Shown here in pieces: positions 34,038 to 60,479 of a stretch of 64,000 bases of DNA. Within the stretch, counting starts at the first letter, position 1. Every line of letters starts with the position of its first letter. The stretch covers positions 53,727 to 117,726 of the forward strand of contig JAJPJK010000011.1 in the NCBI GenBank assembly GCA_021324265.1, given 5' to 3'. The stretch is from Thermoproteota archaeon. GTDB taxonomy: Archaea > Thermoproteota > Thermoprotei > Gearchaeales > Gearchaeaceae. The notes beneath the pieces are model-generated. The model was not told the origin of the DNA, did no database searches, and saw only the letters and a program-made list of their open reading frames with translations. Both the position numbers and the translations under genes were made by a program.

Positions 34038-36214
34038 GAAAAAGTTATTTAATCCTTATTCTATTACTCGCTAATTCTTTCCTGATAGTCCCATTGCATG
34101 TTAACGCAGAAAATAACGAAGTTTACAGCTTAGGCATTCACTATCTTTACTCAGGATCAAGCAACTTAGACAATGATTTGACAAAGATTAAGAATGCTGG
34201 GTTCCAAATTATTAGGACGAGCTTCATTTGGAAGCTCATTGAACCATATCCAAATACCTTCAATTTCACATATTATGACGAATTGGTTAACAAAGCCAAT
34301 TCCTTAGGTCTTAGAATAATCGCAATACTTGGTATGGGAACACAGGACATGCTTCCTAGCTGGGTCAATGGAGTTGACGATCCTAACTACATAAATTATC
34401 TATCTCAATATGCAAACGCAGTAGTGAAGCGCTACGCTTCAAAAGTAGAGATTTGGCAGATCGAAAACGAGCTAAATCATGTTGGATTTTATAAATGGAT
34501 TGGTTGGAGAACTGGGAACTGGTCAAATGAAGAAATACACAACATATTGTCTAAGCTTTCACAAATCGTAAGAGAGAATACACAAGACAAAATCATGATA
34601 AATGTTATTGTAGATAATCCTAATTGGCTTTCATTCTTGAAAAGTATAAACGACATAAACTATGATGTTATAGGCCTAGATTATTACCCAAATTACCTAG
34701 ATGACTATGCCAGTGATGCAGGAAGTCCTGCGAAGGGTCTCGATATATATAATTATATTCTTGAAGCTAGGCAGTTTAATAAAGAAATAATTGTCTCAGA
34801 GACCGGGTACTCAACTTATAACAAAATCCATAATGAAGAGAATCAAGCTTTATTTTTGCAAAATATCGTAAAAGGTGCTTTGTTCGCAGGAGTTAAGGAA
34901 GTAATTTTCTATCAATATAAAGATCAAGTAAACGCAAGTGATATCGAAGCCAACTTCGGATTAATATCCTACAACGGAACACCCAAATTAGCTTGGCAAG
35001 CTCTAAAAAATTTAACGCATGCAAACTGGCTTAGAATAGATTCAAGGATAGATGGTGTTTCTCAATCTCTTCCTTTGAACATAGATGGAATAGAGTTGAA
35101 TTCGTCAGCTAGCCTTCTTTTACCTTCATTGACATACTCGATAAAATTCCCATTTCAGTTAAATCTTACAGATCATATAGCCCAGCTATCCGCATTATTT
35201 ATTAACGGAGTTAAGGTCGATACCAATAACGTTTCGCTCAATTTGACACAGGATACAAACATAGAAATCGTATATGAGTCCTTCTTCTTCTTAAAAATAT
35301 TTCTCAATATTAACGGCACGACTATTCAGCTTTCTAACTCCGTAGTCTACGTTAATTCGCAGCCATATAACTATTCCGAATATTTACTCCTCAAAAAAGG
35401 CGTATATAATATTCAACTACCTACTAATTTGACAATTGCAGGAAGGAGATTCGAAATTCTTAACAGTAGCGAATCAATGAACATTACAGGTAATTCAGAA
35501 ATAACTTTCAATGCTTTACCTGTTTATACGCTCAATATCATCGTAATGGGCTGGTTCAACGAACCAAAGTCTGCGACAATATACATAAATGGCAAAAGTT
35601 ATCAATCCTCTAATCTTACACTGTCTCTTAGCCAAGGTATTTATCGTGTTTCTGTAGCAGATATTTATTCTCAGTCGCAGAATGTGACTTTGGACAAAGA
35701 TACAACTATTATATTTTACGTCCCAGAAGAATTAATTCTCGTGCCACTTCTATTCTTTATAGCATTACCATTTTTCTTCGTTGCAAGAGGCATTCCTTCT
35801 TTAAACATAAAGAAATACAGAATAGTTTTGGATTGCATTACAGTAGCGATATTTTATATCATAATTCCTTACTATGGCATCATATTTCTCTCTAGCATCT
35901 TAACCCAAAAGGCCATCATTTTCTATCAGCTCAAAGATCTTTTGATTTTTGGTATACCGATCATAGTTGTTAAAGCTTTGAAGATATTTAAAAAATATGC
36001 ACTAGTACTTGAGGCAATATCGATAATTTTAATCACACTTTATATAATTTTTATCATAGGCAGAGCGATCTACGGTGAGTTCGGAATGTATACAATTCAG
36101 TACCTTAGTTTAACTTTGCAGATCAATATAGCGCCATATGTGCTTCTTGCGACTGTAATAAATGCATTGAGAGGTTTTGTTGGTTTTCTCGGTTTGTATT
36201 ACTCAAGAAAGTGA
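34034..36214 (+). CDS. Secreted TIM-barrel glycosidase-like protein (GH5/GH39/GH42 clan-A like) with C-terminal TM segments
   Basis: Signal MRKSYLILILLLANSFLIVPLHVNA; IRTSFIWKLIEPYPNTFNFTYYDELVNKANSLGLRIIAILGMG, IWQIENELN, IIVSETGYST; multiple TM at C-terminus. Confidence 0.8.
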   Translation: MRKSYLILILLLANSFLIVPLHVNAENNEVYSLGIHYLYSGSSNLDNDLTKIKNAGFQIIRTSFIWKLIEPYPNTFNFTYYDELVNKANSLGLRIIAILGMGTQDMLPSWVNGVDDPNYINYLSQYANAVVKRYASKVEIWQIENELNHVGFYKWIGWRTGNWSNEEIHNILSKLSQIVRENTQDKIMINVIVDNPNWLSFLKSINDINYDVIGLDYYPNYLDDYASDAGSPAKGLDIYNYILEARQFNKEIIVSETGYSTYNKIHNEENQALFLQNIVKGALFAGVKEVIFYQYKDQVNASDIEANFGLISYNGTPKLAWQALKNLTHANWLRIDSRIDGVSQSLPLNIDGIELNSSASLLLPSLTYSIKFPFQLNLTDHIAQLSALFINGVKVDTNNVSLNLTQDTNIEIVYESFFFLKIFLNINGTTIQLSNSVVYVNSQPYNYSEYLLLKKGVYNIQLPTNLTIAGRRFEILNSSESMNITGNSEITFNALPVYTLNIIVMGWFNEPKSATIYINGKSYQSSNLTLSLSQGIYRVSVADIYSQSQNVTLDKDTTIIFYVPEELILVPLLFFIALPFFFVARGIPSLNIKKYRIVLDCITVAIFYIIIPYYGIIFLSSILTQKAIIFYQLKDLLIFGIPIIVVKALKIFKKYALVLEAISIILITLYIIFIIGRAIYGEFGMYTIQYLSLTLQINIAPYVLLATVINALRGFVGFLGLYYSRK

Positions 36215-39015
36215 GCTTTAAGCTACTTTCAAAAGAACTACAGAATATTCTTAGAGAATTGGGATTTGATGAAGAAACAGAGCCGCAAAGGAAAGCGATA
36301 CCTATAATTCTACAGAAAAAGAATGTATTGCTCATATCTCCAACAGGAACAGGTAAAACAGAAGCTGCTCTCTTACCTGTTCTGGATATGATTAAGGAAG
36401 ATAAGTCAAAAGGAATAAAGGTTCTCTATATTACGCCCTTAAAATCTCTGAATAGGAATTTAATGGATAGAATAACGCTCTGGTGCAGTAAATTAGATCT
36501 GAAGGTAGCTGTGAGACACGGCGATACTCCTCCTAGTGAGAGAAGAAAACAGATGCTTCAACCTCCTGATTTGTTAATTACGACGCCAGAAACTTTGCAA
36601 ATATTGCTTGTCAGTAAGAACATGCGTGAGAATATGAAGACTATAAAGCACGTAATAATTGATGAAATCCATGAGCTTGCAGAGAGCAAAAGAGGATCCC
36701 AACTTGCTTTAGGCATAGAGAGATTGAGACTAATCAGTGGAGATTTTCAAATAATCGGCCTATCGGCTACCGTAGGAGAGCCTGAAAAGCTTGCAAAATT
36801 TCTTGTCGGTAATGAAAGAGTATGCGAAATAATACTGGCATATGAGGAAAGAAAGATGAGATTCAAAATATGCTACCCTAGACCAAGCAAGGAGGATTTC
36901 TTACTTAGCGAGAAAATACTCACCTATCCCGAGGCAGCAAGCAGAGTTAGAAAAATCACAGAAGCAATGAGAGGTAAAAAGTCTACTTTAATTTTTACTA
37001 ACACGAGAAGCGAATCAGAAATCCTCGCCAGTAGGATGCGCATGCTGGGGGTAGATATATTTGTGCACCACAGTTCACTTTCAAAAGAAGCTAGAATAAG
37101 CGCAGAATCATCTCTGAAACTCGGTGAAATTAAAGGTATAGTATGCACCTCATCACTTGAACTTGGAATTGACATAGGTAATATCGATTATGTTATACAA
37201 TATAACTCGCCTAGACAGGCAACTAGGCTTGTTCAAAGAATCGGTAGAAGTAGTCATTACTTAGGAGGTGTCGCAGAAGGACTCATTGTAGCTACAACTT
37301 TGGATACTTTTTTAGAATCTTATGTCATCGCAGAAAAGGCTCTAAGAGGGGAATATGAAAGAATAGTAATACCAGAAAAGCCCCTTGATGTGCTGGCCCA
37401 TCAGTTAGTAGGTTATTTACTTGAATATGGAGAAACTAGTATTCAAGATTTCTTGAAACTTGCACAAAGAGCTTATCCTTATAGAGATCTTAGACTTGAT
37501 GAACTAGACAAGGTAGTTGAATTACTTCAAAATCTCAAACCAAAAGGACTGATAAGAAAGGGAGAATTGATCTTAAAGAGCCTAGGTTCATATTACTATT
37601 ATTTTGAGAACCTTAGTATGATTCCAGATCAGGTTCAGTATGCTGTAATCGATTTCGATACTAAGAATTTCATAGGCGTTTTAGATGAGGATTTTATTGC
37701 AGAATTCGGTGAAGAGGGTACAAGATTCATACTAAAAGGTGAAGCTTGGGAGATACTTTTCATTGAGGAAGATAACAAAAGAGTAATATGCAAAAAGGTT
37801 GAAACTGGGTTAGGAGTAGTTCCTACTTGGGTCGGAGAGGAGATACCAGTTGAAAGAGATATTGCTAAAAAAACTGCTGAAATCAGAAAAGAACTTTATG
37901 ATGGCATAGTTAACCTAAATCTCGAATTACTTGATATTGAAGACTTCGAAATAGTGAATTCAATACTTAAAGCAGAGAAAAAGAAAGACATAGAGATACC
38001 TGATCCACACGAACTTCTAATCGAAGAGGACGAGAATGTCATCGTAATAAATTCTAGTAACGGGACTAAAATGAACAGAACATTGAGCAAAGTTCTTTCT
38101 TATGTGATCAACGAAAGATTGAGAAAAAACTTCAGAGTTCATAGCGATGCCTATAGGATCTATATCATATCAAAAGAGATAGAACCAATAGAAGTACTTG
38201 AAATTTTGAAAAAACTCCAGTTCTATGACTTAGATGACTTGATTTCACGAATATTTAATGAGACTGATCCGCTTTTTAGATATAGATTTACGCATGTAGC
38301 TAAGAGATTTGGGATAATAAAAAAAGAGGCTACAATAGATAAGAAAATCATCATAGAGCTTGCGAGGCAGTATAAGGATTCACCGATATATGAGGAAACT
38401 CTCAAAGAACTATTCAGCAAGGATTTAGAAATAGATACGCTTAAAGAATTGATTAAGAAAATATCTAAAAACGAAATTAAGATAAGGATCTCTGCTACTA
38501 TAAGCGAGCTTACTAAAGAGGCACTAAAATATGTACTCATTGAAGCTGGAATACCTTCCAACAAAGATCCTAGCAAGTTTGTTCTAGAAGCATACAAGGT
38601 TCGCTTATATAGCAGAATATTAACGGTCTTTTGCATGGACTGTAAGGAATATGTGGAAGCTAAGTCTTTCGCAAGTATATCTACGTTGGTATGCCCGTTT
38701 TGTGGCTCGAATAAATTAGCTGTTTCTAGAATGGAACCAAGTAGTGTTATAAAGTATCTAAATAACATAATTAAAAATAGCAAAGATGTTAAAGTTCGCA
38801 GACTTTACAAAAAATGGGAAAAAATAGGAGAGCTCATCGCAAAAAAAGGCAAGATAGCTTTCATAGCAGCCGCCTCAAACATAAGCTATAAATCAATTCA
38901 AGAATTAACAACTAAGTTCGATACGGATAATGACGATTTCTATCTTTCATTAATTAAGGAAGAAACAAATAGACTCAACCAAATACTCAAAAGAACATCG
39001 AAGGCCAAACATTAA
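36211..39015 (+). CDS. DEAD/DEAH-box helicase, Lhr-like, with C-terminal zinc ribbon
   Basis: SPTGTGKTEAAL, DEIHELAES, GLSATVG, VQRIGRSSH; CMDC...CPFCGS. GTG start. Confidence 0.92.
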   Translation: MSFKLLSKELQNILRELGFDEETEPQRKAIPIILQKKNVLLISPTGTGKTEAALLPVLDMIKEDKSKGIKVLYITPLKSLNRNLMDRITLWCSKLDLKVAVRHGDTPPSERRKQMLQPPDLLITTPETLQILLVSKNMRENMKTIKHVIIDEIHELAESKRGSQLALGIERLRLISGDFQIIGLSATVGEPEKLAKFLVGNERVCEIILAYEERKMRFKICYPRPSKEDFLLSEKILTYPEAASRVRKITEAMRGKKSTLIFTNTRSESEILASRMRMLGVDIFVHHSSLSKEARISAESSLKLGEIKGIVCTSSLELGIDIGNIDYVIQYNSPRQATRLVQRIGRSSHYLGGVAEGLIVATTLDTFLESYVIAEKALRGEYERIVIPEKPLDVLAHQLVGYLLEYGETSIQDFLKLAQRAYPYRDLRLDELDKVVELLQNLKPKGLIRKGELILKSLGSYYYYFENLSMIPDQVQYAVIDFDTKNFIGVLDEDFIAEFGEEGTRFILKGEAWEILFIEEDNKRVICKKVETGLGVVPTWVGEEIPVERDIAKKTAEIRKELYDGIVNLNLELLDIEDFEIVNSILKAEKKKDIEIPDPHELLIEEDENVIVINSSNGTKMNRTLSKVLSYVINERLRKNFRVHSDAYRIYIISKEIEPIEVLEILKKLQFYDLDDLISRIFNETDPLFRYRFTHVAKRFGIIKKEATIDKKIIIELARQYKDSPIYEETLKELFSKDLEIDTLKELIKKISKNEIKIRISATISELTKEALKYVLIEAGIPSNKDPSKFVLEAYKVRLYSRILTVFCMDCKEYVEAKSFASISTLVCPFCGSNKLAVSRMEPSSVIKYLNNIIKNSKDVKVRRLYKKWEKIGELIAKKGKIAFIAAASNISYKSIQELTTKFDTDNDDFYLSLIKEETNRLNQILKRTSKAKH

Positions 39016-47299: not shown

Positions 47300-47316
47300 T
47301 CTTATAAATAGTTCGC

Positions 47317-48039
47317 TTGATTTTCTTTGTGGACACTTCTGACGAGCTGAATCAAATTATAGAGCTATCTAAAGCCGTTCTAGAACGAAAAATAGATCCG
47401 CTTAAATTGAATGTTAGAGAACTACTCGAAAAAATAGATGCGATATTTCCAAAGCTAAAAGATATCGAAGAACACCTCAAAGATGTTGAAGCCATGCATG
47501 GTATTGCCAACATTCTACACGAGCAAACGCACGAGCTGAACTATAGATCTGAAATCATGTATCTCTCTCCCGAAGCAATGATTGAAAAGATCAAGAAAAT
47601 GGATCCAATAACACTTGCAAACATCCTTATTCTTTGCTTGAATCCTGTATTATCAACTTCCTATTTAAGTACGGAATCTTTACTGAATGCCATTGAATAT
47701 TGGTATGCAATGAGTAAGAAAAAGGAACAAAAAGAAGAGAGAAGCCCTAATGTAGTAAGTATAAACTTAGAAGAACTGGGTATAATAGGGAAAGAATCTT
47801 TGGCCAAGATAGAAGAACTCGCTAAAGAAATAACATCTAAGACGCCAATAAACTTGAAAGAGATGCTAGCGGGAAAAAGTTATGAAGAAAAAATACAAAC
47901 TTTGTATTTTCTGGCATACCTAATATCAAATGGTTCGTTTATTTTAAAGGAAATCGATGATGAGATTTTCGTAGATAGAGGTAAAAGTTCGTACAAAGGA
48001 TCAATTATCATAGAGGCATCTAAATGGGCGAAAGAGTAA
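47317..48039 (+). CDS. Kleisin-like protein (ScpA/Nse4-like)
   Basis: N-terminal IIELSKAVLERKIDPLKLNVRELLEKI resembles kleisin N-domain; C-terminal wHTH-like SYEEKIQTLYFLAYLISNGSFILKEIDDEIFV; overlaps KITE-like gene. TTG at 47317 or GTG at 47329 as start. Confidence 0.6.
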   Translation: MIFFVDTSDELNQIIELSKAVLERKIDPLKLNVRELLEKIDAIFPKLKDIEEHLKDVEAMHGIANILHEQTHELNYRSEIMYLSPEAMIEKIKKMDPITLANILILCLNPVLSTSYLSTESLLNAIEYWYAMSKKKEQKEERSPNVVSINLEELGIIGKESLAKIEELAKEITSKTPINLKEMLAGKSYEEKIQTLYFLAYLISNGSFILKEIDDEIFVDRGKSSYKGSIIIEASKWAKE

Positions 48040-48593
48040 GTAAACGAAAAGCGACTCTTTTCGAGAAAATGAAAAAAGCGCTACACTTATTGCTTATACA
48101 AAGAAAAAGCATACCTGGTGCAACAGGATACGAGCTGAAAAAATTCGCGGGAAGAAAATATCTTTATGTAATTAAGCTACTAAACAGCGAGTTAGAATCC
48201 TTTGGCCTAAAAATCAAGATAGTGCTACCCGAGGATACTCAAGATTTGAGCAATCCTTCGGAAGATGAATATCTAAGAGCTAGATACTACATTACTTCCA
48301 ATGAGCCTCTCTTAACTACAATTTCAAAAGGTCAGTTCAACATCGAAGAATTGGCTTGCCTTTCTGCTTCATTAACGTTTATAATTGCTAAATCGAACAA
48401 AGCTAATTTAAATGAACTTGAGACGTTGTTAGAGACGAAGATTTCGAAAACAAAATCAAAAAGAATGGTTGAGAAATTCAGAAGACTGGGCTACATCGAG
48501 ATTGATAAAGATAACATTGTAAAACTAGGATGGAGGGCAAAAGCGGAATTGGATATCGAAAGATTGATGAAGCTTCTAGCAATCTACCGTTAA
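48024..48593 (+). CDS. KITE-like winged-helix protein with MAGE/Nse3-like features
   Basis: WHA-like KKALHLLLIQRKSIPGATGYELKKFAGRKYLYVIKLLNSELESFGLKIKIV and C-terminal GWRAKAELDIERLMKLLAIY (compare MAGE WGPRA.AE...LLEFLA). Overlaps the kleisin gene by 16 nt. Confidence 0.55.
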   Translation: MGERVSKRKATLFEKMKKALHLLLIQRKSIPGATGYELKKFAGRKYLYVIKLLNSELESFGLKIKIVLPEDTQDLSNPSEDEYLRARYYITSNEPLLTTISKGQFNIEELACLSASLTFIIAKSNKANLNELETLLETKISKTKSKRMVEKFRRLGYIEIDKDNIVKLGWRAKAELDIERLMKLLAIYR

Positions 48594-51250: not shown

Positions 51251-52573
51251 CTACTGACCTGCTATGCTTACATTTTCAACGAGGATGAAGGGGAGTTTAT
51301 AATTGAAAATCCAACGGTAGTCTGAAGATAATTCTTTAATATTGCTCAATAGAGTTCTTAAAGATACCCCTATTCCTGCTTGCAATAACGAATGTTTAAT
51401 TTTACCGTCTTCAACATAGAACCCTTCATTAATCATTCCTGAAAATTCTCCTGTAATGACGTTCGGAGTATCATATGTTGATCTCAGATAAATACCAGTC
51501 TTGATTTGCGAGATGATATCTTCTGATTTCCTATTTCCAAGTTCGAATATTAGATTTCTAGAGCTTATTGTAGGCAAACTCCTAAAACTATTCCTAACCG
51601 CATTACCGGTGCTTTCCTTTCCTTCCTTAGCCGCTGTATAACTATCATACATAAATCCTTTCAAAATACCTTTTTCGATCAATACATTGCGTTGTGAAGG
51701 GCTGCCTTCGCCATCGAAACTTGAGCTACCTAGGCCTCCGCTAAAAGTACCGTCATCAATTACTGTAATATTATCATTGGCTATTTTCTGGTTCAAAGAT
51801 TCACTTAAAAAACTTCTTTTCCTCTGAACAAGATCAGCATTTAATGCAGAGTTCAAAGTTATACAAATTAAATAAAGTGAAGCAACCGGGTCTATAATCA
51901 CAGGATAAGATCCAGAAGGGACCCTTTTCTTATCAAGCCCTTTTAAAGTTAAATTGTGTGCGTTATCCATTGCTTCCTTGATGTTAAGTTCTTTGAATAC
52001 TCTTGATGATGTAAAATCAGAACTACCACTGTATTTATCACCTTCAGCTGCAGCCATTTCAACTGAAAAGCTAGCAAACGTTGAAATCTCATCTCCTTCA
52101 ACACCTAAACTATTGGCTATAGATTCCTCATATACAGCGATCTCTAAATCAGCATTAATAGATTTAATTCTTGAATCAAAATCTCTCATCAATGCATCTT
52201 TTATGATGTTTGAAACAGATTCTTCGTTCAAATTTTCAAAAGATTTATCATAAATTCCTTCAACTTTTCTATATGGTTTCTTAGAAGGAAAAGATATGAA
52301 GTTAGGATCTGGAATGGCAGCTTTTGCAAGTTTTATTGCTCTTTCAACGGCATCTTCAATGTTATTTAGATTAGTCGTATAATAAAAGCCCAACGATTTA
52401 TTTAACACAACTCTTATGGCAATCCCACTATCATTTCTTTTCTCGAACCTCTTCAATTCCTTCTTTCTTATAGCTGCCCTAGTGGAGTCTTCTGAATAAA
52501 AGAAGCACTCAGCTTGCATTGCTCCAAATTTCTCTGCAAGCCTTACTGCTTTTAGACAAATATCAAGACTCAT
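51251..52573 (-). CDS. TldD/PmbA family protease subunit (TldE/PmbA-like)
   Basis: AAIRKKELKRFEKRNDSGIAIRVV, PVIIDPVASLYLI, FDGEGSPSQRNVLIEKGILKGFMYDSYTA. Confidence 0.88.
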   Translation of the reverse strand: MSLDICLKAVRLAEKFGAMQAECFFYSEDSTRAAIRKKELKRFEKRNDSGIAIRVVLNKSLGFYYTTNLNNIEDAVERAIKLAKAAIPDPNFISFPSKKPYRKVEGIYDKSFENLNEESVSNIIKDALMRDFDSRIKSINADLEIAVYEESIANSLGVEGDEISTFASFSVEMAAAEGDKYSGSSDFTSSRVFKELNIKEAMDNAHNLTLKGLDKKRVPSGSYPVIIDPVASLYLICITLNSALNADLVQRKRSFLSESLNQKIANDNITVIDDGTFSGGLGSSSFDGEGSPSQRNVLIEKGILKGFMYDSYTAAKEGKESTGNAVRNSFRSLPTISSRNLIFELGNRKSEDIISQIKTGIYLRSTYDTPNVITGEFSGMINEGFYVEDGKIKHSLLQAGIGVSLRTLLSNIKELSSDYRWIFNYKLPFILVENVSIAGQ

Positions 52574-53958
52574 TCTACTCCACCAACTACAATACCTTTA
52601 ACTCTGAGATGCGGCCCGCCATCGCCTACTCTTACCCATTGACCATCTTTACCGCAATTCCCTATACTCTTTATCTCTAAATCCTTACCTACTAGATCAA
52701 TGTTTTTCAAAGTTTCCAAAATCACGCCACTAAGGGAAAGATCCCTTAAAGGTACAGTTACTTCTCCTTTTTCTATCAAATAACCGCTTTCACACTTGAA
52801 CGTGAACTGACCATTATTAGGCAAAACATAACCATATTCAAAACCTTTAGCATATATGCCCAGTTCTATATCTTCTATAAGCTCATCGAAGCTAGCATCA
52901 CCTTTCTCGAAATATATATTGCTCATTCTAACCAAAGGAGGATTTAAATAAGAATCCGCTCTTGCTGCGCCGTTATTAGAAAAACCTAGAATAGAACTTG
53001 TTTCAATGTTGTGCAAGTATTCATTCAATACCCCATTCTTAATTATATATCTAGGTTTAGCAGCCACACCTTCATCATCATAGACATATGAGCCATAACA
53101 GCGTTCCAATAGCGGGTTATCAACTATTGAAACAACATCATTGGCAATCTTCTCACCCAATCTTCCCTCGAGAACTGAGTTTTTCTCTACTACTCCATCT
53201 GCTTCGGATGGATGACCTATTCCTTCATGTGCAAAAACTCCTACAAGAATAGGATCCATGATACATGTATATGTCCCAGCTTTAACACTCTTTGCACTTA
53301 ATTGCTCAATAGCCTTCCTTGCACTTTTAATTCCAAGTTCTGAAACACCGAAATCTTCCAATATCTCAAAGCCCCCTGTACCCCCTATTGCACTATAACC
53401 TCTTCCACGTTTCCCACTCTCAAAAGATATAGCTAAGGCATTAGCGCTTATGTATATTTCCTCTTTCTCTACAAAAGTTCCAATTGAGTTATAGATCTCG
53501 ACAATATCTCTATTTTCGTTATAACGCACAGTTTCGCTCTTTATCTTTGAATCATAATTCCTAATGGATTGATCTAGACTTTTCACCAAATTGAGCTTCT
53601 CCTCTATAGATACCTCCTCAAAATCTTTTCTTATGTATGTTTTTACCTTAGCCTTGTACGCTTTCAAATCTTTAAGATTATATGATTCTTTTATAAGATG
53701 AGAGCTTGACTTGGCTATTTTAAAGGCTCTATTCATTGCTTCTTTCAATTGTTCATAACTGCCCACAGATGTAGAGGCAAAACCCCATGCTCCTTTTATA
53801 TAAACTCTTACCGAATACCCTTCATCTTCGTTAGAAGCAAAATATCGAAGATTTCCATCTACAAAGGTTATCGATGTATCCCTAGATTTTACATGCCTTA
53901 TTTCAGCGAAATCAGCGCCTAGTTTTAGACCAAAATCAAGCACGCTATCAATATCCAT
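52570..53958 (-). CDS. tldD: TldD metalloprotease
   Basis: HEGIGHPSEADGV (HExxxH), DDEGVAAKPRYIIKNGVLNEYLHN; ATGA-type overlap with PmbA-like gene. Confidence 0.92.
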   Translation of the reverse strand: MDIDSVLDFGLKLGADFAEIRHVKSRDTSITFVDGNLRYFASNEDEGYSVRVYIKGAWGFASTSVGSYEQLKEAMNRAFKIAKSSSHLIKESYNLKDLKAYKAKVKTYIRKDFEEVSIEEKLNLVKSLDQSIRNYDSKIKSETVRYNENRDIVEIYNSIGTFVEKEEIYISANALAISFESGKRGRGYSAIGGTGGFEILEDFGVSELGIKSARKAIEQLSAKSVKAGTYTCIMDPILVGVFAHEGIGHPSEADGVVEKNSVLEGRLGEKIANDVVSIVDNPLLERCYGSYVYDDEGVAAKPRYIIKNGVLNEYLHNIETSSILGFSNNGAARADSYLNPPLVRMSNIYFEKGDASFDELIEDIELGIYAKGFEYGYVLPNNGQFTFKCESGYLIEKGEVTVPLRDLSLSGVILETLKNIDLVGKDLEIKSIGNCGKDGQWVRVGDGGPHLRVKGIVVGGVE

Positions 53959-57206: not shown

Positions 57207-58076
57207 GTGAAATTCGGCGTCTCGATTCTTCATACTGGTCAATGGGCCTCCAAAGAAGCTATAGAAAAGACAGCTGAGCAAGCTGAAAGATTGGAGTTCA
57301 ATTCCATATGGGTCTCAGACCACATAATTACACCGACAAGCTATGGGAAAAGTTATGGTTATATCTACGAATCAATTGTAACACTCTCATACTTGGCATC
57401 TCTTACAGAAAATGTCATACTAGGAAGTTCAGTCATAGTACTTCCTATAAGAGACCCTGTTATTTTAGCAAAACAGCTTGCAAGCTTAGATTTACTGAGC
57501 CAAGGTAGGTTGATTGTGGGTTTTGGCTCAGGATGGTTGAAAGAAGAATTCGAATTTTTAGGTAAAGAGTTCATTAATAGAGGAAAAATCATGGACGAAT
57601 GGATAATGACAATAAAGAGATTATGGAGCAGCGAAAGAATAGTTTGGGAAGGAAAAGAAATGATGTTTGAACCAAAGCCTTTACAAAAAGGAGGCCCAAA
57701 AATAATAATAGGAGGAAATTCTAAAAAGGCGATAATAAGAGCATGTAAGTTAGGAGATGGTTGGAATCCAGTAGGTATTTCTCCCAAGATCTTATCAAAA
57801 AAGATTGCTTTTATGAGGAAGATGAGCAATAATTACAGGAAGTTAATTTTCCTGAGAATAGGATGCCTACCGGATATAGAGAATGCATACAAAACAAAGA
57901 AGAGCGACTATAATTATTACCTTAGCGGATCACTCAGAGCCATTGCTGAAGACCTTGAAAAATATAATGAGCTAGGAGTAGACCATCTAATTGCATACTT
58001 CGGAGCTGTTAATTTGGAAAATTACTTAGAGCGTATGAGAAAATTTAAGGATATCATGAGATCATTCCAAAACTAA
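57207..58076 (+). CDS. LLM-class flavin/F420-dependent oxidoreductase
   Basis: SIWVSDHIITP, VILGSSVIVLPIRDPVILAKQLASLDLLSQGRLIVGFGSGWLKEEF. Confidence 0.92.
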   Translation: MKFGVSILHTGQWASKEAIEKTAEQAERLEFNSIWVSDHIITPTSYGKSYGYIYESIVTLSYLASLTENVILGSSVIVLPIRDPVILAKQLASLDLLSQGRLIVGFGSGWLKEEFEFLGKEFINRGKIMDEWIMTIKRLWSSERIVWEGKEMMFEPKPLQKGGPKIIIGGNSKKAIIRACKLGDGWNPVGISPKILSKKIAFMRKMSNNYRKLIFLRIGCLPDIENAYKTKKSDYNYYLSGSLRAIAEDLEKYNELGVDHLIAYFGAVNLENYLERMRKFKDIMRSFQN

Positions 58077-59785
58077 ATACTTCCAACACCACTAATTCCT
58101 CCTTGCTTTGCAACTATTATGATATTGCTATCTTTGAAATATTGAATCATTGGATCAGGCGTTATGAAGATGTATTGAATATCAGGATTATCCTTCGGCA
58201 AACTGGATAGCAGGATTGATACGCGCTCCTTGTTTATAGGGTCCATATGCACATCAAATTCATCCACGGCTCTAATGGATGATTTCATGTATTGTTGACA
58301 TGCAAGTAAAAATGCGATGATCGTTGCGGTTCTTTCTCCGCCACTTTGTGAGAAAGAATTGAGAAGTACAGGCGAAGTACCTCTAAATCCCACACTTATT
58401 TCTAATGATGCTTTTTCAATGTCGTCAGCATTTTTAAGGGCCACAAAACCTATACCGTCAATTTTTGAAATGACTGATCGAAAAATTTCATCAACTTTAG
58501 TTACAGCATCAACTATAATGTTAGTCCATAACTGCATCCTCTGTTTCAGTTCTTCTTTAGTTTTTTCTTTATTCTCCTCTATTTCTTTTATCTTAGCCTT
58601 TAATTCTTCATATTGCTTTAGATAATTGTTATAATTAATGGGAATCTCTTCATTGATCTCGCCAAGGCTTTTCAGCTCCGCTTGTAAGTCCCTCAGTTCA
58701 GATTCGATTTCTTGAATTGTCCTTCTGACTTCCACTTTTTCGACCTTCTTCTTCTGTTCAAGCTTTTTAAAATCTTCTTCTGCTTCCTCTAACAAACTTA
58801 ACTTATTTTTCAGTTCGGAATTCAGAATTTCTAGGATGTATGAATTGACAGCCAAACTCGCCTTGAAGTCAGAATATTCTTCAATCTTTTTAATGATTTC
58901 ATTGAAAACAAAAGCTTTCTTAAGCTCATCCAGTATCATATCTTTCAATTCGTTAACCTTATTTTTCAAATATGATATCTCAGAATTAACTTTATTTCTC
59001 TTATCATAAATATAATTTATTTCTTCTCTTAACTTTTCAACTTTCTTTTTTAACTCATTATAATTAGCCCAAAACAATTCATTTTTTAATGAAGAAATTG
59101 TTTCGATTAATTTTATTTTTCTCTCATATTTCTGATATAAATTTTTCCAATATTTTAAGTTGATTTCAATATTCTTCAAAGATTGATAAACCCCTTGAGA
59201 CCCCTTTTCAATGTCGCTAAGCTTGCCTATCGAGTTTAAAACATGCCTTCTATAATCTCCTATACCTACTGCCTCCTCAAAAAGCCTAAGCCTCTCTATA
59301 GGATCCTTGGTTATGAATTCTTCAATCATGTTCTGGTGCATTATTATGAGTTCGTTATCAGGATTGATACCCAATCTCTTAAGCATTCTTTGAAGCTGAA
59401 ACTTCTCTATAACTTCTTGATTGAATTCGAACCAGTAATTTCCGTCCTTCCTAATTACCCTGGTAATCATCACTTGGTCTAAACTTGAGCTTGGAAAGGG
59501 TCTTTTGCCTTTGATAGGGCTATTATCCATAATTAAAGAAACACGAGCAGCTTCTTCTCCATAAGTAATCAAATCTGAAAGTTTTCTTGATCGTTCGGTA
59601 TAACTCTGCCCCAGTGCTACTGAGATGCCTATTAAGATGCTAGACTTCCCGCTTCCATTGGGACCTGTTATTAAATTGACTCCTTTCTTCAAAGGTATTC
59701 TCGAATATTTATGAGAAAGAAAATTTTCTAATATGATTTCTTTTATATACGTGCTCAAACCTAGTAAAGATATTAGTTTATCCAA
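58073..59785 (-). CDS. Short SMC-family ATPase with SMC5/SMC6-like motifs
   Basis: ENFLSHKYSRIPLKKGVNLITGPNGSGKSSILIGISVALG, SFSQSGGERTATIIAFLLACQ, RAVDEFDVHMDPINKERV, IQYIFITP; central coiled coil ~230 aa. TTG start at 59785, or TTG at 59758. Confidence 0.85.
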   Translation of the reverse strand: MDKLISLLGLSTYIKEIILENFLSHKYSRIPLKKGVNLITGPNGSGKSSILIGISVALGQSYTERSRKLSDLITYGEEAARVSLIMDNSPIKGKRPFPSSSLDQVMITRVIRKDGNYWFEFNQEVIEKFQLQRMLKRLGINPDNELIIMHQNMIEEFITKDPIERLRLFEEAVGIGDYRRHVLNSIGKLSDIEKGSQGVYQSLKNIEINLKYWKNLYQKYERKIKLIETISSLKNELFWANYNELKKKVEKLREEINYIYDKRNKVNSEISYLKNKVNELKDMILDELKKAFVFNEIIKKIEEYSDFKASLAVNSYILEILNSELKNKLSLLEEAEEDFKKLEQKKKVEKVEVRRTIQEIESELRDLQAELKSLGEINEEIPINYNNYLKQYEELKAKIKEIEENKEKTKEELKQRMQLWTNIIVDAVTKVDEIFRSVISKIDGIGFVALKNADDIEKASLEISVGFRGTSPVLLNSFSQSGGERTATIIAFLLACQQYMKSSIRAVDEFDVHMDPINKERVSILLSSLPKDNPDIQYIFITPDPMIQYFKDSNIIIVAKQGGISGVGSI

Positions 59786-59798
59786 ATAAAATTTACCG

Positions 59799-60479
59799 AT
59801 GGTACTTTCAGCTAAAGTCTTTTTGGTTGAACAAGAAATGAGTTTGGAAGAGATAAGAAAGAAACTAAAAGATTATAGAACTGAAAGAATTGAGGAACAT
59901 GAAGGCAAGCCAATAAAACTTGAAACGAAGATTGAGGATATTTTTTTAAAAGACGATGTCCTTTCTGGACTATACTCAAATGACTTTGTCATCTATGTGA
60001 ATCAACATGGTCTCCTCAATCCTATTATAAAAACATATGATGCACAATTTAGATTCATAAAAGGTAGTAAGCTTTTTTTAGTCATATTTGAAAAGAAAAG
60101 ACTCGCTAACTACATTGCCAATGAATTAAGTAAAATTCTTTTTATAAAGTCAGGCAAGATAACTGAAATTCGAATCGATCCACAAATAATGCAAAAACAT
60201 CACGAGGAAAATAGAGAAAATACAAAGGTAATTTTTTTCGATGACATAAAAATTCCAAGTATAGAGAAGCTATCGCTATACGGTGAAAAACTTGCAGATA
60301 CTGAACTTTATCATGAATACCTCAAGCAGGGCAAAATATGGTATCTTGTTTATGTATCCAAGATAACTGGTAAAACAGTAGGTCTTACTAGAAATGGAAT
60401 TATCGTACATTTCGATAAAATCTCTTTAGAAGATTTCTTTGCTTTCATAAAAAATGAAATCCTAAAGCTAGTTTCATGA
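59799..60479 (+). CDS. Hypothetical protein, divergent from the SMC-like gene
   Basis: 226-aa ORF, ATG start, 13 nt from the SMC-like start; no family recognised. Confidence 0.7.
   Translation: MVLSAKVFLVEQEMSLEEIRKKLKDYRTERIEEHEGKPIKLETKIEDIFLKDDVLSGLYSNDFVIYVNQHGLLNPIIKTYDAQFRFIKGSKLFLVIFEKKRLANYIANELSKILFIKSGKITEIRIDPQIMQKHHEENRENTKVIFFDDIKIPSIEKLSLYGEKLADTELYHEYLKQGKIWYLVYVSKITGKTVGLTRNGIIVHFDKISLEDFFAFIKNEILKLVS

Follow-up and report, generated by a model that had tools for sequence, protein, structure and literature searches.

Candidate kleisin and KITE partners of a hinge-less mini-SMC in Thermoproteota: a putative prokaryotic SMC5/6-type complex

A published tree unites archaeal SMC proteins termed 'SMC5/6-related' with SMC5 and SMC6 at 100% bootstrap, and the text of that paper makes no mention of a kleisin, ScpA or ScpB (PMC9389158). 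The archaeal Smc complex has been reported without a KITE subunit, and surveys have reported smc, scpA and scpB to be missing from Crenarchaeota (PMC7055376). A search of the open-access literature in PMC, with preprints outside its scope, gave no description of a kleisin, KITE, operon or partners for the mini-SMC treated here; a prior account of the kleisin or the KITE could exist in a preprint or a subscription paper. The archaeal SMC class is already known, and what is added here is the kleisin, the KITE, the operon and the neighbours.

The gene pair and the mini-SMC

The window, i.e. the whole stretch of 64,000 nucleotides that was analysed, carries the following features of the proposed complex.

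47301-47310, + strand: putative TATA-like element CTTATAAATA before the kleisin gene, identified from the motif only
47317-48039, + strand: kleisin gene, predicted Nse4-type, 240 aa, start TTG as called
48024-48593, + strand: KITE gene, predicted tandem winged-helix protein of Nse1/Nse3 type, 189 aa, start ATG, no RING
58073-59785, - strand: mini-SMC ATPase, SMC5/6-related, with Walker A at residue 41, signature at 481 and Walker B at 508

The coordinates given in the first-pass annotation, two open reading frames downstream of cysS with an overlap of 16 nt (48024-48039), were borne out. The first frame begins 17 nt past cysS. The kleisins of the two nearest relatives begin near the equivalent of about residue 5 in the window kleisin, and the TATA-like element is situated approximately 20-28 nt 5' of a GTG at 47329. 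Because of this element and the start sites of the nearest relatives, the kleisin probably starts at GTG 47329 (residue 5) and not at the called TTG 47317. Genome-typical codon usage was observed only in the called frames of the two genes. Both proteins are conserved at 61 loci, which represent 37-38 families or lineages, and the pair is therefore not a product of chance. A TldD/PmbA-type metallopeptidase pair (51251-53958, - strand) lies in the interval that separates kleisin and KITE from the SMC gene.

An SMC5/6-like ATPase had been placed about 10 kb from the pair, and it was located 9.5 kb away on the opposite strand. Members of this mini-SMC family are 555-692 aa in length, typically about 570 aa. 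Since about 255 residues separate the two head halves, the arms can be estimated at roughly 110 residues. An SMC_hinge domain was found in none of 12 members and a CxxC zinc hook in none of 20. A Trp is present at the midpoint of the arm in 11 of 12 members, the window copy not among them, and this residue is, speculatively, a candidate tip contact. One SMC5/6-like gene was found per genome, second matches being halves of the same gene.

The mini-SMC family profile gave the highest scores for yeast Smc5 (198 bits) and Smc6 (189 bits), followed by canonical Smc (158 bits), Smc2 (129 bits) and Rad50 (51 bits). The order was reversed for a control profile of canonical archaeal SMC, with 535 bits for Smc, 334 for Smc3, 329 for Smc4 and 67 for Smc5. 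In a head-domain tree with yeast Smc5 as its single eukaryotic sequence, this protein grouped with the mini-SMCs of archaea and away from both Rad50 and canonical SMC (UFBoot 99). The mini-SMCs found here are very probably the same proteins as the 'SMC5/6-related' SMCs of PMC9389158. Another short-SMC variant, of only about 795-828 aa, was observed in Aenigmarchaeota (L096:6992-9478 and L100:6992-9379); these proteins group with canonical SMC in the tree, and a ScpA-like kleisin is found near one of them.

Identity of the kleisin and the KITE

Searches with the window kleisin and KITE as single sequences against Pfam, NCBIfam and PDB gave nothing useful, and homology was assigned from family profiles and structural models. 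A PHROGs search was not informative. The AlphaFold2 model of the kleisin, with a low pTM of 0.41, consists of an N-terminal helical domain (residues ~7-80), a low-confidence middle and a C-terminal winged helix (~159-221), so that both the kleisin-like N-domain and the C-terminal winged helix previously read from the sequence are visible. Pfam Nse4_C was matched by 8 of 24 family members (best 5.6e-9). The family profile matched yeast Nse4 (2.2e-6), the ScpA C-domain (5e-4) and EID3, a human NSE4 paralog (0.007), in the PDB. Foldseek placed yeast Nse4 first (1.1e-4), followed by cohesin kleisin and ScpA. By Pfam, PDB profile and predicted fold the window kleisin is of the Nse4 type.

Tandem winged helices, as expected for the second frame, are visible in the AlphaFold2 model of the KITE (pLDDT 82.7). 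The top three Foldseek matches were Nse1 (9.1e-6), chain A of the Nse1-Nse3-Nse4 complex (4.6e-5) and MAGE-G1 (5.9e-5), with further matches to KITE chains of yeast Smc5/6 (about 2e-3 to 7e-3), ScpB (8e-3) and MukE (2.6e-2). Some KITE family members matched Pfam SMC_Nse1 at 0.002, and one of 25 gave a weak match to Pfam MAGE (E 0.17). A weak PDB match of the KITE profile to Nse1 was gone once the profile was enlarged to 25 sequences, and a choice between Nse1 and MAGE therefore cannot be made by sequence alone. A GWR..E motif is invariant across the family (W170, R171, E175). No RING match was found in the KITE, which stops just past the second winged helix. The earlier suggestion of a MAGE/Nse3-like subunit holds in part: the Nse1/Nse3-like folds and the GWR..E motif are real, but the specific assignment to MAGE/Nse3 is based on this motif and the one Pfam MAGE match, and Nse1 is the better match. 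The model thus places the KITE in the Nse1/Nse3 type, with MAGE not favoured over Nse1 and with weak sequence homology to either. The second winged helix also has a weak match to the NCBIfam Sul12a chromatin protein (E 1.6e-6, 28 bits compared to a cut-off of 150), hinting at a possible kinship between Sul12a-like proteins and KITE winged helices.

Linkage, distribution and recurrent neighbours

The KITE homolog of relatives directly follows a kleisin-family gene, itself directly after an SMC gene of about 575 aa, and the SMC of the window is the ortholog of the SMC heading these operons (E about 1e-130). The SMC>kleisin>KITE run is present in assemblies of Thermofilales, Methanomethylicota, Bathyarchaeota, Methanodesulfokora and Nitrososphaeria. 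In the window genome the three genes do not form one run, the SMC lying 9.5 kb away on the other strand, and in one genome of the same family the SMC is found on a different contig.

Distribution was studied in an evenly drawn sample of 251 Thermoproteota genomes. The SMC was detected in 115 genomes and the KITE in 114; 112 had both (Fisher p 3.6e-65), which answers the question of phylogenetic co-occurrence raised in the first-pass annotation. This p-value overstates independence because the sampled genomes are related. Same-strand SMC>(kleisin)>KITE order was observed in 97 of the 112, with a median SMC-KITE spacing of 812 nt. A locus search of 28 genomes from other archaeal groups, a sample taken outside Asgard, recovered both positive controls and no KITE. 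A mini-SMC together with a hinge SMC was found in 47 of the 251 genomes, a mini-SMC only in 68 and a hinge SMC only in 50. The occurrence of the mini-SMC complex is independent of canonical SMC.

These distributions bear on whether the pair could be the ordinary ScpA/ScpB of a canonical condensin, its likeness to SMC5/6 being incidental. Such a reading has support in the hhalign comparison of the kleisin with archaeal ScpA (97%, E 1.2e-10, 190 columns), in the second place of ScpA C-domains after Nse4 among the PDB matches and in the presence of ScpB within the KITE fold matches. Nse4 nevertheless scored better than ScpA, and Nse1 better than ScpB. The pair adjoins the mini-SMC in relatives and not a canonical SMC, and the SMC hinge was undetected in 68 of the 115 mini-SMC genomes. 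The first-pass annotation would have been refuted by a canonical long SMC elsewhere in the genome with the pair as its ScpA/ScpB, and this was looked for: neither ScpA (PF02616) nor the SMC hinge (PF06470) was found in the window genome, which is 95% complete, and its other SMC-superfamily protein is Rad50. An ordinary ScpAB pair is considered highly improbable. Operon linkage, co-occurrence, the Nse4 profiles and the Nse1/Nse3 folds instead support the original proposal that the two proteins are partners of an SMC5/6-type SMC.

The mini-SMC is short, as is coalescin, and it could be asked whether it is a kleisin-free coalescin/ASRP or a Rad50 relative, with the pair representing winged-helix chromatin proteins linked by chance; the weak Sul12a match of the KITE (E 1.6e-6) would fit chromatin proteins. 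Chance is excluded by the operon and the co-occurrence, and the mini-SMCs have no zinc hook, a trait of ASRP and Rad50 (PMC9389158). Rad50 also scored far below Smc5 and Smc6 with the mini-SMC profile. This explanation is regarded as extremely improbable.

Clustering of the neighbours at the loci read identified only two further widely recurrent families besides SMC, kleisin and KITE. Both are present in the window.

36211-39015, + strand: Lhr-type DEAD helicase, of a family that elsewhere repeatedly lies next to the KITE gene in convergent orientation
59799-60479, + strand: uncharacterised family of about 228 aa, encoded next to the SMC gene in divergent orientation

The Lhr-type helicase family recurs near the KITE in 19 families. 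In 28 of 56 loci it lies at most 1.3 kb from the KITE, convergent and usually abutting; many of the mini-SMC loci have no Lhr neighbour. A passage in PMC7437997 attributes to archaeal Lhr a preference for fork structures and a supposed activity in DNA repair. The gene neighbourhood suggests a functional link between Lhr and the SMC complex. An alternative explanation could be shared regulation, and the Lhr helicases form a multi-gene family. Genes of the 228-aa family are oriented divergently to the SMC at many loci. The family was found in 113 of the 251 Thermoproteota genomes, including 101 of the 115 genomes with the SMC (Fisher p 4e-40), even where the two are unlinked. One genus, of a family that is probably Thermofilaceae, has a diverged form but no SMC. 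No Pfam or PDB match was obtained for this family, which is a candidate fourth subunit or regulator.

The neighbours are also of relevance to a third possibility, namely that the SMC and its partners form a defence system akin to Wadjet, MksBEFG or Lamassu instead of a chromosomal housekeeping complex. The SMC head matched the PADLOC models LmuB (1e-24) and mad3 (3.5e-31), scores that are expected because any SMC-superfamily head would give them. In PADLOC the kleisin matched nothing, and the KITE matched JukA just marginally (0.0067). Among the neighbours scanned at the locus, none was recognised as a JetD/MksG-type nuclease; the recurrent neighbours are the Lhr helicase and the 228-aa family, and the genes are single copy with a stable order in dozens of families. 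A defence role is accordingly thought very unlikely.

Proposed complex and comparison with known systems

With high probability, the two proteins serve as kleisin and KITE in a prokaryotic complex of SMC5/6 type, with the mini-SMC at 58073-59785 as its motor. Composition, folds, operon linkage and co-inheritance were established by comparison; assembly and function are proposals. Two identical mini-SMC chains would join at the tips of their short coiled-coil arms, and ATP would bring the heads together as in the SMC5/6 precedent. The kleisin could then close the ring by holding the neck of one SMC through its N-domain and the head of the second SMC through its C-terminal winged helix. One or two KITE copies on the kleisin middle may push DNA against the joined heads, similar to Nse1-Nse3-Nse4 on Smc5/6. 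The complex would use ATP to clamp DNA or to translocate along it, possibly at replication forks or repair sites, a role pointed to by the recurrence of Lhr as a neighbour. Chromosome organisation may be an added role in genomes without canonical SMC, the window genome included.

A bolder proposal, to which we give an even chance, is that of a complete prokaryotic SMC5/6, composed of a hinge-less homodimeric mini-SMC, an Nse4-like kleisin and an Nse1/3-like KITE together with Lhr and the 228-aa subunit, ancestral in Thermoproteota and near the ancestor of eukaryotic SMC5/6. If true, crenarchaeal lineages hitherto described as being without any SMC-kleisin complex would have one, and only this one. 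For the archaeal 'SMC5/6-related' proteins, previously orphan ATPases only, the present results provide candidates for the non-SMC subunits, and the three-gene set makes the origin of eukaryotic SMC5/6 experimentally approachable. The results also qualify two published statements, namely that Crenarchaeota are without an Smc complex and that no KITE belongs to the Smc complexes of archaea (PMC7055376). A hinge-less SMC, if functioning, would furthermore be a test of the requirement for arms and hinge in DNA clamping or loop extrusion.

Several described systems resemble the proposed complex. Wadjet (JetABCD) and MksBEFG likewise consist of SMC, kleisin and KITE, but they are defence loci with a nuclease and a patchy distribution. 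Coalescin ClsN and the ASRPs are likewise short SMC-superfamily proteins of crenarchaea; the ASRPs differ by their zinc hook, and no kleisin is known for them. Smc-ScpAB, the condensin of bacteria and archaea, has the same SMC-kleisin-KITE plan, and its ScpA is a distant homolog of the kleisin described here; it differs by its long hinge SMC and by the ScpA Pfam family. Eukaryotic SMC5/6 is a heterodimer of two distinct SMC paralogs with long arms and a hinge domain, whereas one SMC gene is found here, for a presumed homodimer of about 570 aa chains without hinge or zinc hook. Eukaryotic Nse1 bears a RING, and the single KITE gene found here does not encode one. Because of the one SMC gene, the short arms, the missing hinge and the one KITE without RING, the archaeal complex is described as SMC5/6-type and is not filed as an SMC5/6 complex. 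The features common to both are heads of the SMC5/6 branch, a kleisin of Nse4 type and a tandem winged-helix KITE of Nse1/Nse3 type.
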